Positions 3,493-63,978 of a stretch of 64,000 nucleotides of DNA are shown here, in pieces (position 1 is the stretch's first letter; each line of letters starts with the position of its first letter). A program made the translations under genes and the position numbers. Where the stretch lies: the NCBI RefSeq assembly GCF_004664715.2, contig NC_051083.1, positions 114,958,534 through 115,022,533 of the forward strand. Direction: 5' to 3'. The DNA is from Peromyscus leucopus. Lineage: Eukaryota; Chordata; Mammalia; Rodentia; Cricetidae. The notes beneath the pieces are model-generated. The model made no database searches and was not told the origin of the DNA. It saw nothing but the letters and a program-made list of their open reading frames with translations.

Positions 3493-4357
3493 ATATATTG
3501 GGTGCCTAATGTCCTAGCAATATAATTTAGCTAGGAAAACAGTGGTAAGTTCTCTTTGCGTCACACTGACTGAAACAACAAAACAAATACAGCATTTCCA
3601 GTTTCCTTTAGTTGGTGTTTGTGTGATATTAGTCCATTAGCAGATTAGTTGGACAAGTAAGATCCAAACAGTGAAATGCTGCAAAAAGAGGAGGGATATT
3701 AAAGCACAATGGCTCTGAGTTGCACTCTTAGATCTACTCTTAGGTCTACTGTAAGGCTTCTGATGAGATATTGAAGTTCAAAGGAGAGAATAGTATCTCT
3801 ATGTTTGGGAACAGAGAAAGTGGCTCACAGCAAAGAAATAGAAAACAAGTAAAGTGTGTTGGCAGCAAGGGAGAACAAAGTCCTGTAATATTACTTGGAA
3901 AGGGTAAAGTCAGAATAGAGCATTACTGTGAGTGGGTGTGTTCTGAGGTGGCATTGGTGTAATTTTTTAAAGTACTGGCAGTGAAGTTAATGCAAACCAG
4001 TTAAAGAATTTTCTCTGACATAAGTTAACCTTGTGGGTCTGAAACTTATTATCATCCCCCTACATACTTCTTCAGGAAAATGGTCATTAACTACTTGGAT
4101 AAGTTCAGAGAGATGGATAAGGGACCAAAGGAATTATGATTCCATGTCTATAGTGTTAAGACTTCAGCATAAAGGTATGCCATTTGTAATGATGTTGATC
4201 TAGAAGGTGAAGCAAACCAGTGCATTATAGGTTAAACTGCTATCAACTCCATTACCCCTCTGAGTGGGCTTTGGGGGAGATGTAATTTAGGATCTGAGTT
4301 CTCTGATCTATCTTTAATCTGTGTTTTACATTTAGTTGGATGTAAAGTTACCTGCGA
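3492..4357. other. No gene recognised
   Basis: Single-copy-looking AT-rich sequence. The only ORF is a 63-codon one at 3771-3962 with low-complexity content and no domain. Confidence 0.5.
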
Positions 4358-14596: not shown

Positions 14597-15861
14597 AAAT
14601 AATGTTTTAGCAGAACATAACCACCCTAATTCATTTTTATATTATCTATGCAGCTTCCTAACTTTCATAGCATTTAAGAAAAACTTATGACAAATACTAA
14701 GGTTGGTTCCCAGATCTTAAAATGTTACTTTCTGGCCTTTAAGAAAAAGAAAAAAATTAAATCCATGTTCTAAAAGAGAAAATGGATATTTGGAAATGTA
14801 TAAGAGGTCCTGTGAAATTTTCTACTTTGCATGTGAGGGCACAGAGGCAGACTGAACATACCTAAGTGTTTCAGCGTCCTATGTGGGAATGTTGCTGAGA
14901 TATGAACACAGTTTTGTTTTGCTCAAGAGACAAAATCATATTCATCCCATCATACTACCTCATCAAATTATAAAGAAAGTATCCATCTTGTCTTCTCTCT
15001 GCTAGGCAATATTCTAAGAAAGGAGAATTCATTAGTGAATAATAAAGAGACATCCCTGCTTTCATGGATTATGCATTAGAAAAGCAAATTATTAGAATTA
15101 AATTTAATGTATTAATATTATATGGTGTGTGAAAAGTGATACAAGCCAAAAAAAGAGTTCAGGAAGAAGGGAAGGTGGCAGCGGAATTGGGTAGGGATTG
15201 ATTGCTAGAAGAAATGGTTAACGATGACCTCAGTTTTGAAAAAACCATGGAGAATGAGACTCAGCCAAAAACTTTTGAGCCGGAGGAAGGAGCCTGTGCT
15301 GAGAACATCCAGTGAAAATCCTGAGTTCCTCCTCAAAGAGGAGGTTGAACTAAGGGTCAGGAGCTGGACAAGAATGGGAGCCAAAAGAACAAAGAGAGCA
15401 GTGTGGGTGCCCACAGCTTGTGTGTGGTGGGGAACTGGTACAGAATGGTTGTGGAAGAAGAAGGCTAGCTGAAAGGTACAAGAGCACTGCCTTTTAACTC
15501 TTTTAGAGAAATTTTTTCTAAAATCCCTTTGTACAAAACCAGAACACACACGCAGGTACACAAACATATAAATTATAGTAGGCACTATGTCTAATTGTAT
15601 GGTGGAAAGATCGTACCTATTGAAGTCACACAGGACTGTGTATATCCACTCTGCTACATGTTGATTTGATGAGTCAGGAAAATTGTTAGTATTGTTATGA
15701 CACGATTTATTGAATATTCTTTAAATGGCCCCTGCTTCATATACGTGATCTCATCAAAGCCTTACATAGTTAGATAAGTTTATGCTAATGACATTTGAAA
15801 GTATCTTGGGGTTAAATTAAGTGTTGAAATTAAGTGGTGATAGCTAATAGTAATAACAGGA
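14597..15861. other. No gene recognised; old L2/MIR traces
   Basis: Weak old-repeat similarity near 15000-15090 (L2-like) and 15710-15800 (MIR-like). The 126-codon minus ORF at 15205-15585 and its plus shadow have no domain, and neither is supported. Confidence 0.4.
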
Positions 15862-16380: not shown

Positions 16381-16448
16381 AGACCAATAACAAAGTGGAA
16401 GAAAAAATCTTAGTTTCTTTTCTGTTGTTGCCTATACATATGGAAAGC

Positions 16449-16803
16449 TGCTGTGGGATAATGCTCTTGTACACTAGTTTAATAAAACGCCGATTGCCAG
16501 TAGCCAGGCAGGAGGTATAGGCAGGGTGAGCAGACTAGGAGAATTCTGGGAAGAGGAAGGGCAGAGTTAGGAGATGACAGCCTGCTACCCAAGGAACAAC
16601 ATGCTAGCAGACCAGTAAACCATGGAACACATGGCAAAACATAGATGAATAGAAATGGGTTAATTTAAGTTATAAGAGCTAGCAAGCAAGAAGCCTGCCA
16701 TGTGCCATGCAATTGGTAATTAATATAAGTCTCTGAGTAGTTATTTTATAAGCAGTTGTGGGACCGTGGGCCAGGCAGGGCCAGAGAGAAACTTTCAGCT
16801 ACA
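16449..16803 (+). mobile_element. Solo LTR, mys-like class II endogenous retrovirus
   Basis: A 355-bp unit starting TGCTGTGGGATAATGCTC and ending CTACA is flanked by a perfect 6-bp duplication GAAAGC (16443-16448 and 16804-16809). TG...CA ends with a 6-bp duplication fit a class II (ERVK-like) LTR. Two related copies occur in this window (23150-23490 and within 60012-62750). No internal retroviral sequence adjoins it, so it is a recombined solo LTR. The family name 'mys-like' is from memory. Confidence 0.88.
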
Positions 16804-16809
16804 GAAAGC

Positions 16810-22925: not shown

Positions 22926-23149
22926 TCTAGCCACTCTGGAGAACAATGGTCATGGTAAAGGAAGCCTTCCCGAAGGGAATGTTGTCTGTGCCAAATCAAG
23001 AGGAACAGATTGAATTTTGTGGGGAGGAGCTGGGAGGGTATTCCACAGAAGGTGATCACCATCTGTACTAGTTTGAAAGTGAAAGAGATTATGCACATCC
23101 AAACTGCTGCACTTGATCTAATGTGAATGTATGTGCAGTGAATGGTTCA

Positions 23150-23490
23150 TGTTGCTGGAGGGCTTCTCTCCAGGTTCCCCAAGCCCCGCAGTCCCACAAT
23201 CCACTTATAAAATAATCACTCAGACGCTTATATCACTTATAAACTGTATGGCCATGGCAGGCTTCTTGCTAACTGTTCTTTTATCTTAAATTAACCCATT
23301 TTTATAAATCTATAGCTTGCCACGTGGCTGGTGGCTTACCGGCGTCTCTACATGCTCTTCTCCTGGCGGTCGCTGCAGTCTCCCTCTCCTTCTTCCTGTT
23401 TCCCCAATTCTCCTCTCTCTGTCCCGCCTATACTTCCTGCCTGGTCATTGGCCATCAGTGTTTTATTTACATAGAGTGATATCCACAGCA
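23150..23490 (-). mobile_element. Solo LTR, mys-like class II endogenous retrovirus
   Basis: A 341-bp unit with TG...CA ends. A perfect 6-bp duplication GGTTCA lies at 23144-23149 and 23491-23496. Read on the minus strand it starts TGCTGTGGATATCACTC, as in the copy at 16449. Small ORFs over it are antisense LTR shadows. Confidence 0.9.
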
Positions 23491-23599
23491 GGTTCATGGT
23501 GGTGAAAACAGAGACCTGAGAAGCTGAAGCCAGCCTCGTGAAAAGCCTTCTATTCCAAGACAAATATTTTTTTCTTTTTCCTAAAATCAAGTGCCTACC

Positions 23600-59079: not shown

Positions 59080-60011
59080 ATTTTCAAATGTCCTAAAGTA
59101 TGTATTGAAAAGTTAATACTCTCACCACTTATTTCAGATGCATCTTTTTCATATACTAAGCTTCCACTTATTTACATAGCTCTGGTTTAGGGCCTTTTTT
59201 TCTGTTTCATTGATTTCTTTGGCTACTCTTATATTGGTACAAAATTATTGGAATAACTATAGCATTCTGATGTATTTTGATATCTGATAGAATAAATTTG
59301 TTTTTTTCTTTTGCCTTGCTTATTTCTGTAGTTTCTATTCTTGCTCAATTTTAGAATCCAATTCAAATTCAACAATCATTACTACCTGTAATTTGATCAT
59401 AAGTATATTTAATTTAGAGAGTAATTTGATCATTAATGACATTTTTAAAACAGTGATGAATTCCATGTATAGGTATTATGTACCTTGCTTAGGATGTATT
59501 AGATAGATATTTGAGTATGGCCTATAAGGGTTATTTGAGGTTTAGATGCTTTATGATATTTCTTCTTAAGTATTTTTTTTAATATGAATGAGATCCTTTT
59601 CCTGTAACATTTTAAAATTGGTTACTTATTTCATCCATGAAGCAAAACATTTATACATTGTTTGGCCCCATGGATTAAAAATAAACAAAACTTTTTAATT
59701 GGATCTAGTAGATTTCCATTGGTTTATTCTGAATTTTCAAGGTAAATAATTTTATCTAGTACATCATAATATATATATATGTCTTCCTTATTTATCTTTG
59801 CTTATTGAATTGGTTTGGGCTTCCATTACAATGTCAAATACAATATAATATATAAAATATATTTGATATATTTTTAATTTCTAACTTCTATAGATATTCT
59901 CTTGTTTCACCATTAAATGTACTGTTTGCTTTATGTTTATGATACATACATATATATGTCATAGATTAAGGATATTTGAGTCCTTTGGTCTTTACTTAAA
60001 ATATTTATTAC
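59080..60011 (-). mobile_element. Old L1, antisense, ORF2-derived
   Basis: TTCTGTTTCATTGATTTCTT, then GGCTACTCTTATATTGGTAC and AGTTTCTATTCTTGCTCAAT match the antisense of an L1 ORF2 region; the reading frame is gone. The LTR element at 60012 is inserted at its right side. Confidence 0.55.
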
Positions 60012-60352
60012 TGTAGCTAGAGTTTTTCTCTCCAGGTCCCACCAAGCCCTGGCAGTCCCCTAGCCCACTTATAAAATAAACATACAGACATTTATTTTAT
60101 TTAAACTGCTTGGCCATTAGCTCAGGCCTACCATTGTCTAGCTCTTACTCTTATACTCAGCCCATTTCTGTTAATCTATATGTTGCCATGTATTCTGTGG
60201 CTTTACCGCCATGTGTTCCATGGCTTTACCTGTTGCCTTTACATAATGCTCCCTGGACAGCAGGCTGGCGTCTCCCCCTCTCAGCCTTCCTGTTCTCTCA
60301 ATTCTCCTCTCTGCTAGTCCTGCCTGTACTTCCTGGCTGGCTACTGGCCAAT
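60012..60352 (-). mobile_element. LTR arm (minus), most of one LTR
   Basis: Read on the minus strand it matches the solo LTRs at 16449 and 23150 from GGCCAGTAGCC to the CTAGCTACA end. Relative to the plus arm it carries a 25-base repeat of a GGTAAAGCCA segment. The last 40 or so bases at the LTR start are missing here and found instead at 62717-62750. Confidence 0.85.
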
Positions 60353-60376
60353 TACTGTTTTTAAAACAGCTTCCTA

Positions 60377-62439
60377 GTTGTCTCTCTCAAGTTGGTGGTT
60401 CCTGGCATGCACGTTTGACCAGCAGTGTGGCAGGAATGAAGCATCTACAAGTGGCACACTACACTGCGTGGTAGATTTAGTCTTTGCTAGTACAAATAAA
60501 AGAGGTTTCTGGGCTACACGCTGATTTGATAGAAACATAGAACCACTATTTATAAGAGTTAATGGCTCCCAGAGCTGGCTATGGCCCAGAGCTGGTGGTA
60601 AACATACCACCGCCATGTTGGGAAGCTGAGGTGGGCAGAGCCACCAGCCAAAGCTGCTATTTTAGCCCTAGTAATGCTGCAGTTTAAAACAATAGATTCA
60701 CAGTAAGACAGATTCAGATGGAACAAGACTTTAAATGGTTTACAATGTGTGTAAAAATGTACGTAGGCTTGGAAGAGAAAAAAAAAGAAATATATACAGT
60801 TATAAAGAAATAGTTTTTAAAAATAAAGTCTTTAAACAGACAGTAAAGGTAGTATAAAATGAGCCACATAAAGATGGATATTACACAGAGAATCTGGATT
60901 GTGTTGTCTTTGGGATTTTCAACTGCAGAAAAACATTTGATCGTAAAAGCTTTTGAGTTAAATATGTATATTTTAAAGTTACCTTGACTTCAAAATTTGG
61001 ATGTAAGGATATGTTGCTTTGGAAAGGAGGCTCTGCTTTTGTTTCCACAGAAAGCCAGAGACAATGAATTTGTTCCAGATTAAGATACAACAGGTTTGAC
61101 CCATGACCCAGATGATCCAACATCCAGAACGGTTTCAAGGCAACTGGTTCAGACAATACACCCTCATGGACTACTCCATAATCCTAAAATTTTCTTTGTG
61201 TTCCCATAAGATACAGCGCCCCCCTCCAGCAGGAAGTAGTAAGAGAAGCCACGCCCAAATTCCCAAATATACCAAGCAGGCTTTGGAGATGGAATTGGCT
61301 CACTCGTTCTCTAAAACCAAACATATTGCTAAAAAATTTCTTTGTCCCATATCAGAAGATCCCTCTGGTGTGGCACGGAGAAAAACCAATATTTTTATTT
61401 AAATCAGGTTGATTATAAAAGCAATCTTTTTCTAAAGAAAAAAAAGTGGATATGATATAGATATAATAGGATGAAAGGGTAGATTATTGAATCTACTTTT
61501 AAAGAGCAACTTGTTTAAAATGTTTTATATTGCTATGGATTTTAGTTTATTGATACAAATTTAAAAAATTTTGTTATACTGTATACATATTTCTATTCTT
61601 GTTTGAGGTATTATGTTTATGTAATTCATTTAAATTGTAATTGATAATTAAGAAATACAGATTAATAATTAGTCTTCTATGATAGTCAAACTTATAGTCA
61701 TGTTGTTTTCTAGGTACACATAGATATAATTCAGTTAGGTAGGTAATCTTCAAACACTTCAAAGATCTACAGAATATGATATTTAAAATGTTTTAAAAAT
61801 TTAAACTTTCTGGACAATGAGACATGTCTGCTCCTGGCAGCACCAATTTACTTCAGAGGGGAGGATGGGCATCAAAAACACTCCATATGGAGTTTATCTT
61901 CACCTTGACAAAAATAGCCATTTAGGCAAGAAACTGTTCTTGCCTGGACTGCTTGATCAATTGGACATGAAGGACCCATAGGAAGGTGACCACTGAAATT
62001 TGCTTGGCAAAATGGTCCTTCAGGTTTCTGTTTCACAGAGGAAACTGCCAGACATTCTACAAGACACAGAGAAAAATGACTGAGAGACTCTAGGCCTGTG
62101 GGCTAAAGACAGATGCCCCAAATTTACAAAGGAACATTAGGTGACTGACCAGGCTGCCAGCTGTCTCTGTCTACCCTACAAGTCTCCCAAAAGTTGCTTG
62201 AACCTTCTCCTGTTTTGCACTCAGGTAATAGTATATCCTTCTGGGGTCTTTGATATAATTAAAGACTAGATAGTTATAATTTCCTCACTTAAGATAAAAG
62301 ATAAGTTAGATATAAAACCATAGACTCACAAATATAAGATAGATGGGATGTCTTCTTTAATATTGTAACTGTAATTCTTGCTTGACAATTGTTTTTTTAT
62401 AAGTAATTTTACTATGTTAAAGTTAAAAACCTTACTTTT
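60377..62439 (+). mobile_element. Internal non-coding retroelement sequence
   Basis: AT-rich, about 2 kb, bounded by the minus arm and the polypurine tract. A GC-richer block (61100-61290) contains AACCCTCATGG-like and CAGCGCCCCCCTCCAGCAGG stretches recalled from mys-like elements. The 99-codon plus ORF and 91-codon minus ORF here have no retroviral domain. Confidence 0.6.
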
Positions 62440-62461
62440 AAAAAAAGGAAAAAAGGGGAAG
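62440..62461 (+). promoter_or_regulatory. Polypurine tract before LTR
   Basis: Uninterrupted purines AAAAAAAGGAAAAAAGGGGA and AG immediately precede TG of the plus-strand LTR. In retroelements this primes plus-strand DNA synthesis. It fixes the internal region as plus-oriented. Confidence 0.85.
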
Positions 62462-62711
62462 TGCTGTGGATGATTGATTGATAAATAAAACTCTGATTGG
62501 CCAGTAGCCAGGCAGGAAGTATAGGCAGGACTAGCAGAGAGGAGAACTGAGAGAACAGGAAGGCAGAGAGGGTGAGACGCCAGCCTGCTGTCCACGGAGC
62601 ATCATGTAAAGGCAACAGGTAAAGCCACGGAACATGTGTCGACATATAGATTAACAGAAATGGGCTGAGTATAAGAGTAAGAGCTAGACAATGGTAGGCC
62701 TGAGCTAATGG
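62462..62711 (+). mobile_element. LTR arm (plus), 3'-truncated
   Basis: Starts TGCTGTGGATGATTGATTG and follows the LTR through ACAGAAATGGGCTGAGTATA to CCTGAGCTAATGGCCAA, where it stops about 100 bases short of the LTR end. It is very similar to the reverse complement of 60012-60352 across about 230 bases. Confidence 0.88.
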
Positions 62712-62750
62712 CCAATCAGTGTTTTATTTATCAACCAATCATCCACAACA
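62709..62750 (-). repeat. Inverted LTR-start segment at the right end
   Basis: TGGCCAATCAGTGTTTTATT to CATCCACAACA is the reverse complement of an LTR start, the mirror of 62462-62503 with a few differences. TGGCCAAT recurs at 60345-60352. Confidence 0.85.
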
Positions 62751-62965
62751 CATTACTAGTAGGGGTACTAATCATGCCAACATTAACTCTCCATGCATAT
62801 TTTGAAAGATTCAGCTGAGCAGCTAGTTTCAGGGTCTCACTCCAGTCAGTTTTGAATCCTTCAGTGATTGTACTTATACTGACACTGACATGGACTGTTT
62901 TTAGGAGGTGACTATTTTAAATTCATTATTATATACATTGAAGTATTAATTTAATCAGAGTTTTA

Positions 62966-63090
62966 AAGGGTTAAGACTGTAAACATACCCCCTATGTAGA
63001 GTAGATAGGGGTAGGGTAGAGGGAGCAAAAGAAGAGGAGGGAGGGGGAACTGTGGTTGGTATATAAAATGAAAACAAAACAAAACATAAA
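62966..63090 (+). mobile_element. L1 3' terminus
   Basis: GTAGGGTAGAGGGAGCAAAA, then AGGGGGAACTGTGGTTGGTA, TATAAAATG and an AAAACAAAAC tail, in rodent L1 3' order. Confidence 0.65.
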
Positions 63091-63279
63091 CATGTCTTTG
63101 TTGTATATAAGGTCCCAGAGGAACCAGGGAAGAAATGGTAATAAAACATCAAATAAATTATAAGATAGGAAAAATTTAGAGCCCAAAATAATAATTAAAA
63201 AAAGGAGCACCAAAGAAAGGAAATAGAGTACCAGACTCAGATTGTCAATGAGGGGCAATCAACAAGGAAGAACATAACT

Positions 63280-63978
63280 TGTGGATTCCTGAGAGCTTCC
63301 CCGGCACCCTGCCTCTTTCTATTCCCACGATGTCTTCATTTATCATGGTATTTTTTTCCTTCCCTGCTCTCCCATTCTGTCCCTGTTCCATCTCGATCCT
63401 CCCATTTCCTTATCTTCTCATGCCCCATTCTTTGCCCTCCATTCTCACCCCCCACTCCCAGTTTTCTCATGTAGATCTCATCTATTTCTCCTTCGCTGGG
63501 CTATCTATGTGTCTCTCTTAGGCTCCCTCCTTGTTAGCTAGCTTCTCTGGAGCTGTGGGATGTAGTCTGATTATCCTTTTTACATCTAGTATCCACTTAT
63601 GAGTGATTACATACTATGTTTGTCCTTCTGAATCTGGGTTACCTCACTCAGGATGATATTTTCTAGTTCCATCATTTACCTGCAAATTTTGTGATATCAT
63701 TGTTTTTTACTGCTGAGTAGTTGTATATATGTGCCACATTTTCTTTACCAATTATTCAGTTGAGGGGCATCTAGGTTGTTTCCAGGTTCTTGCCATATGA
63801 ATAATCTGCTATGAACATAGTTGAGCATGTGTCCTTGTGGTAAGATTGAGCATTCCTTGGGTATATGCCCAAGAGTGGTATAGCTGGGTCTTGAGGAAGA
63901 CTTATTCCCAATTTTCTGAGAAACCACCATACTGATTTCCAGAGTGGCTATACAAGTTTGCATTCCTACCAACAGTGG
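63280..63978 (-). mobile_element. Inverted 5' part of a second L1 (3' UTR start plus ORF2 C-terminus)
   Basis: Antisense L1: GAGAGCTTCCCCGGCACCCT, AGATCTCATCTATTTCTCCT, TTGTTAGCTAGCTTCTCTGG, then the ORF2 end GAATCTGGGTTACCTCACTC and GGGCATCTAGGTTGTTTCCA. It parallels 31141-31845 but also contains about 300 bases of 3' UTR. Frameshifts break ORF2. Confidence 0.88.

Follow-up and report, generated by a model that had tools for sequence, protein, structure and literature searches.

Inverted LTR arms within one imperfect target-site duplication in Peromyscus leucopus: probable strand switching at an inverted repeat in the LTR of a mys-like element before integration

The element at 60012-62750 of the window, i.e., the whole stretch of 64,000 nucleotides of Peromyscus leucopus DNA that was analysed, is a non-coding ERVK-like (class II, mys-like) element, and it is likely that this non-autonomous element was rearranged during reverse transcription and then integrated as one unit. 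An inverted repeat in the LTR connects the start of U3 with a site shortly after the TATA box, and strand switches at this repeat recur inside target-duplicated units elsewhere in the genome. For this class of insertions, strand switching before integration is close to shown, which rests on two loci (L097 and L109). For the window copy, we infer it from the shared junction, the proper U5 and U3 termini, a target-site duplication whose agreement is rarely reached by chance, and an arm divergence like that of one ordinary provirus.

Structure of the Element

A preliminary description had reported inverted LTR arms, a repeated octamer, a polypurine tract and a truncated plus-strand LTR, and the sequence is as described. 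The order on the plus strand is TATTAC, the LTR from position 352 to 26 inverted, internal sequence from +69, the polypurine tract, U3 from position 1 to about 254, U3 from position 42 to 1 inverted, and CATTAC. In the orientation of the LTR, this amounts to a single LTR interrupted between positions 26 and 42 by 2.35 kb of opposite sense, where the outer ends make up one minus-strand LTR (positions 352-26 on the left and about 42-1 on the right).

The left target-site duplication, TATTAC (60006-60011), is followed by the left arm (60012-60361, minus strand), which is the reverse complement of the LTR from 352 to about 26 with the U5 end (TGTAGCT..) outermost. This arm contains a 23-nt tandem duplication (60185-60230, 87% between copies), which is missing from all three other sequences covering that stretch in the alignment. 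At the left junction (60361-60363), the minus-strand LTR meets plus-strand internal sequence at a place where ordinary copies have the 5′ LTR, the primer binding site and about 68 bp of leader. The non-coding internal sequence of the family (60363-62439, plus) leads into the polypurine tract (62440-62461, plus) and then into the U3 of the plus-strand LTR (62462-62715, positions 1 to about 254), of which R and U5 are missing. Within this U3, the first copy of the inverted repeat lies at the U3 start (62492-62514, plus, LTR 31-53), a TATA-like box lies at 62670-62675 (plus, LTR 209), from which the U3/R border is predicted near LTR 240 with a putative start site, and the second repeat copy coincides with the right junction (62698-62721, plus, core TGGCCA at LTR 248). 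The mirrored U3 start (62709-62750, minus, LTR 42 to 1) ends in ..CCACAACA and is followed by the right target-site duplication, CATTAC (62751-62756).

The inverted relationship of these parts is evident in direct comparison. The segment 62717-62750 is the reverse complement of LTR 34-1 and is identical to the plus-strand U3 start at 31/34 positions; a mirror copy of the plus-strand LTR start (62461-62508) lies at 62704-62751, and the arms at 60105-60361 and 62487-62720 show 85.6% identity in inverted orientation with gaps counted. The longest listed ORF touching 59500-63500 has 99 aa. TG..CA termini and a polypurine tract ahead of the 3′ LTR are both present in the window element. Two direct LTRs are absent, the LTR pieces being inverted, whereas the ordinary relative L095 is a provirus with direct LTRs (1100-1452 and 3633-3983) and a perfect GAAAGT duplication. 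The window copy is also without a tRNA-type primer binding site, which was lost together with its 5′ LTR and leader.

Inverted Repeat in the LTR and Right Junction

In ordinary LTRs, the U3 start (31-52) and the stretch 237-259 are inverted copies of each other, GCCTG(A)GCTA[A/C]TGGCCAA[G/T]CAGT; the latter stretch follows the TATA box by about 30 nt. A transcription start at about the same distance from the TATA box would place the second repeat copy at the U3/R border. The right junction of the window copy falls inside this 22-nt imperfect inverted repeat, and the palindrome TGGCCA, pointed out in the preliminary description, is the core of it. The repeat alignment beats all 200 mononucleotide shuffles in 24/51 LTR copies, and no more than 3 of the 200 shuffles reach its score in 37/51. 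The remaining 14 copies have a weaker inverted repeat, the score of which is reached by 5 to 125 shuffles, as expected if old copies have decayed.

Both junctions had been placed at the octamer. The right octamer (62709-62716) is indeed located at the junction, but the left one (60345-60352) belongs to the ordinary LTR sequence; the breakpoint on that side lies at 60361/60363. The junction letters of the window copy, AATCAG, occur in none of the exact ordinary borders listed, which are a part of 3,088.

Fold-Back Junctions in the Genome

A scan with a 35-base pattern of the right junction, allowing up to 3 mismatches, gave 18 places, and the reversed-pattern control gave none. On reading, 12 of the 18 places were fold-backs, representing 11 insertions including the window; the others (L103, L104, L105, L107, L111 and L113) match the pattern without being fold-backs. 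A scan with the pattern of the sister subfamily gave eight places, all of them fold-backs and three of them new, with a control of zero. Taken together, the scans yielded 14 insertions at 15 places, i.e., the window and 13 others, in which U3 turns back into its own start. At the same stringency of up to 3 mismatches, the ordinary borders for one subfamily number 3,088. For L110 and L112, the mirrored parts were recognised by eye, from the similar sequence in L100, L109, L115 and L116 and from the U3 start in L114, rather than by aligning an inverted start copy inside the locus. The junction letters vary among the loci (AATCAG, GAGCAG, AAGCAG, AACCAG) and the mirrored ends come from different subfamilies; therefore, the fold-backs are taken as separate events.

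One of these insertions, L097/L098 (= L049/L050), was assembled twice and first found as two places. L049 lies on a separate 425-kb contig (C1355) and L050 on C22, with the same flanks, as a duplicate haplotype or a segmental copy.

Perfect 6-bp duplications surround the whole rearranged unit at 5/13 of the other insertions (L097/L098, L102, L108, L109 and L112), where several boundaries of the duplicated units were read by eye from the printed sequence. L097 consists of U3 followed by its own mirrored start, 289 bp in total with U3 at both ends, between two copies of GTTTTC. L109 consists of a normal 5′ LTR, internal sequence, polypurine tract, U3 and mirrored start, again with U3 at both ends, between two copies of CACAGT; its mirrored end reads ..ATAGTA, not ..CA. 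In both loci, the duplication directly abuts the mirrored U3 terminus, which indicates that the mirror existed before integration and that this terminus was the inserted end.

The other three units have U5/U3 outer ends, as the window copy does. L112 is 269 bp long and comprises an inverted U5 end, plus-strand U3 from about 127 and the mirrored start, with AAGATG on both sides. L102, with TTCCTC on both sides, comprises in 533 bp an inverted LTR, the tract with about 60 bp of internal sequence, plus-strand U3 from about 180 and the mirrored start. L108 (C7:76824852, minus) is 1,213 bp long and is flanked by CCCTGT on both sides; it begins with an inverted LTR from another family, together with the tract of that LTR, and continues with the internal end of the mys-like family, the tract, U3 and the mirrored start. 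The second LTR family is abundant, and its 39 other scored copies begin at query 34-45, with 24 beginning at 41, the first element base. The joined flanks of L108 form an uninterrupted repeat sequence, which we take to be a B1-like SINE. This hybrid suggests co-packaging of RNAs from two LTR families.

A confirmed target duplication is lacking at 8/13 of the other mirrored loci. In L115, with an inverted U5 piece on the left, and L116, with a U3 start on the left, the hexamers match at only 3/6 positions by eye, and no duplication was found in the sequence examined for L099, L100, L101, L106 and L110. L117/L118 (C10:9613270-9615270) starts inside plus-strand internal sequence, and the near-matching hexamers CCGTGA and CCATGA adjoin its ends; here, an end lacking an LTR may have been joined. 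The same locus put an end to a junction-letter rule, in which T goes with an inverted U5 left end and G with a U3 left end. The rule had held for 4/4 T loci (window, L102, L108, L115) and 5/5 G loci (L097, L109, L100, L106, L116), a tally that includes several loci without a duplication and leaves out L112, which reads C, as well as L099, L101 and L110 (left end). L117 was the next T locus, and the predicted inverted U5 left end came out wrong.

Left Junction and Arm Divergence

Across the left junction, 27/29 LTR-side matches stop at 60360-60362 (query 49-51), and 10/10 internal-side matches begin at 60363 (query 52). Since the LTR-side matches run this far, LTR positions ~26-42 are present on both sides of the insert. 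The microhomology at this junction is only about 2 bp, as judged by eye. The junction is spanned by none of the 39 other scored places (1,058 candidates). Thus, the search for the same junctions elsewhere, proposed with the preliminary description, succeeded for the right junction, with 13 other insertions, and not for the left (0/39). The idea that a single rearranged lineage had spread in a burst was dismissed, because the left junction is in no other scored place and the other loci have different junctions.

The two arms, A and B, differ at 13-16 of 226 positions depending on the alignment (about 6-7%), which resembles the divergence between the LTRs of the ordinary provirus L095 (24/350) and suggests that the arms may be of one age. 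In a comparison with 51 LTR copies, the arms share minority letters, one of which is found in only 2/50 others. However, the distance between the arms is no smaller than that from arm A or B to the nearest other LTRs, so the comparison of the arms reveals a divergence like that of one provirus but no closer kinship than with the nearest other copies, and dating does not separate the models.

Target-Site Duplication

TATTAC and CATTAC agree at 5/6 positions with one mismatch, as the near-matching flanks had been described, and random TG/CA-anchored pairs within the window reach a 5/6 match in 0.67% of draws. Among the scored rows labelled 'solo?', 27/39 have a 6-bp duplication whose copies differ at no more than one position (16 being perfect), with the caveat that two pairs of rows seem to represent one place or insertion each and that the label missed at least two 5′ LTRs. 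Elsewhere in the window, two old solo LTRs of this family are flanked by perfect 6-bp duplications: one on the plus strand at 16449-16803 with GAAAGC (16443-16809 with the duplications), and one on the minus strand at 23150-23490 with TGAACC, read on the minus strand (23144-23496 with the duplications). These results indicate that 6 bp is the norm of the family. A search of the genome with the flanks found no paralogous empty site for the window insertion.

Mechanism and Alternative Explanations

In the proposed process, DNA primed at the polypurine tract would copy about 42 nt of U3. The 3′ end of this DNA (CTGATTGGCCA) would then anneal to the plus-sense repeat at LTR 248-258, either on RNA or on the plus strand, where 10/11 bases pair as counted by eye. 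From the annealed end, synthesis would proceed backwards through U3, the polypurine tract and 2.1 kb of internal sequence until it reached a point about 69 nt past the LTR; the strand would then switch again, to position 26 of a minus-sense LTR, and extend to the U5 end. Such a product would have proper U3 and U5 ends and would therefore be inserted by integrase, with a duplication of 6 bp. The preliminary description had suggested that the element integrated as one unit following strand transfer at the palindrome. The right-hand half of this suggestion is well supported by the 13 other insertions and their five perfect duplications, but the left junction lies away from the palindrome and is spanned nowhere else scored.

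Several observations count against integration as one unit: the mismatch in the window duplication, the unique left junction with little microhomology, the arms being no closer to each other than to some other copies, and the mirrored loci without a confirmed duplication together with the failed prediction at L117. In addition, the exit (LTR 42) and the re-entry (LTR 26) are only 16 bp apart, which would be automatic if a broken minus LTR had been repaired. This last point leads to the main rival, the repair of an older minus solo LTR, in which a fixed LTR was broken at positions 26-42; the repair would have begun at the inverted repeat, used the DNA or RNA of another element as template for about 2.35 kb, and finished by end-joining. 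Both outer ends and the target duplication then belong to one minus LTR, LTR ~26-42 flanks the insert on both sides as found, and the left junction resembles end-joining. However, the repair would have used an imperfect inverted site in the presence of thousands of better-matching LTRs, the ordinary borders counted above, and the same switch occurs in L097 and L109, whose termini and duplications cannot come from repair. We regard this repair as unlikely.

Rearrangement of an ordinary minus provirus within the chromosome, by inversion between the inverted repeats of the LTRs with deletion or conversion, is very improbable. The inverted repeat could mediate inversions, and L112 and L102 can be read as an inversion plus a deletion. 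By reconstruction, however, the window copy would require at least three events, namely two inversions and the loss of about 170 bp, since one inversion alone cannot yield a left arm complete from 352 to 26. L097 and L109 cannot be made in this manner; U3 on both sides is not easily produced by a later inversion.

An assembly error joining pieces of several LTR elements is hardly credible, even though the family is highly repetitive and one assembly was examined. The window contains no N, each 150-base flank matches only the window place in the genome and lies directly beside the matching hexamers, the arms have diverged by the amount given above, and another mirrored insertion was assembled twice (C22 and C1355). 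The remaining readings were rejected: simple inversion of a normal provirus predicts an order that misfits the left arm; a nested second insertion lacks complete LTRs and its own duplication; L1-type retroposition into the LTR lacks a poly(A) end; and a DNA transposon with terminal inverted repeats is contradicted by termini that are LTR U5 and U3 ends and by the longest ORF of 99 aa.

With rearrangement during reverse transcription as the preferred explanation, a broader proposal can tentatively be made, at somewhat less than even confidence. The inverted repeat built into the LTR of this family at the U3/R border could serve as an alternative strand-transfer site, repeatedly giving integration-competent DNA with U3 at both ends, or with U3 and the U5 of another family, and making short or long units with terminal inverted repeats that are still accepted by integrase.

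Comparison with Known Systems

In snap-back, or self-primed, reverse transcriptase DNA, the nascent strand folds on an inverted repeat and copies itself to its 5′ end. Such DNA is known as a test-tube product, whereas products of the window class were integrated in the germline with target duplications.

Elements with inverted LTRs are already known. Hughes and Coffin reportedly described in 2002 a HERV-K-related element that is a precedent for inverted LTRs. Their paper is cited in the report on HERV-K124, an element whose LTRs are truncated and inverted; the processes proposed for it are LTR inversion and template switching (PMC3625200). In the window copy, too, one LTR is truncated and runs opposite to the other, a likeness of structure only. 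Unlike the window class, these two elements are single human loci with an unsettled mechanism, and the available text of that report mentions neither a recurrent inverted repeat nor the target duplication of HERV-K124 (PMC3625200). Among HIV-1 proviruses, asymmetric LTRs were found in 26/88 and inversions were rare, and a template switch between two packaged RNAs was proposed for the former (PMC9278108). These cases are similar in that integrated proviruses carry differing LTRs or an inverted interior; they are mostly deletions, however, and the available text describes neither a U3 fold-back at a fixed repeat nor two-U3-ended proviruses (PMC9278108). A literature search, mostly of papers outside subscription, revealed neither recurrent U3 fold-back at a fixed LTR repeat nor proviruses with two U3 ends.

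The fold-back insertions form a natural series of integrated products recording strand switching of reverse transcriptase at a palindrome. The insertion of two-U3-ended DNA in the germline with perfect 6-bp duplications (L097, L109) bears on the strictness of integrase for one U3 and one U5 end, and the series provides a concrete way in which LTR elements could give rise to elements with terminal inverted repeats. For annotation, inverted LTR arms in one target duplication need not mean a chromosomal inversion or a misassembly.

Relatives of the Element

The mys elements of deer mice were reportedly described by Wichman in 1985. We take the window family to be mys-like from its element size and LTR length. 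Non-autonomous ERVK elements related to mysTR have been described in deer mice (PMC10089650), and, as far as the available text of that report goes, the window family resembles them in its non-coding internal sequence, ordinary copy of ~2.9 kb, LTRs of ~350 bp, 6-bp duplications and high copy number (PMC10089650). An ordinary mys-like copy has two direct LTRs, unlike the window copy.

The family is a large non-coding LTR family, with 7,085 candidate places for the LTR and 4,384 for the internal 5′ part in the genome of 2.475 Gb, 40 of each being scored. Searches of phages and of viral contigs gave no match. Oppositely oriented copies of the family (L091, L092, L093) are clustered within 8 kb, some of them head to head; on inspection, they look like old adjacent or nested elements. 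In an ordinary copy, an LTR of about 352 bp precedes a primer site of tRNA type, TGGCGCCCAAC.., and then a leader, and window base 60363 corresponds to a place about 68 bp behind the LTR in such copies. This primer site is presumably of the tRNA-Lys type. A tRNA-Lys(CTT)-like match, perhaps a pseudogene, is located on the minus strand of the window at 14884-14964.
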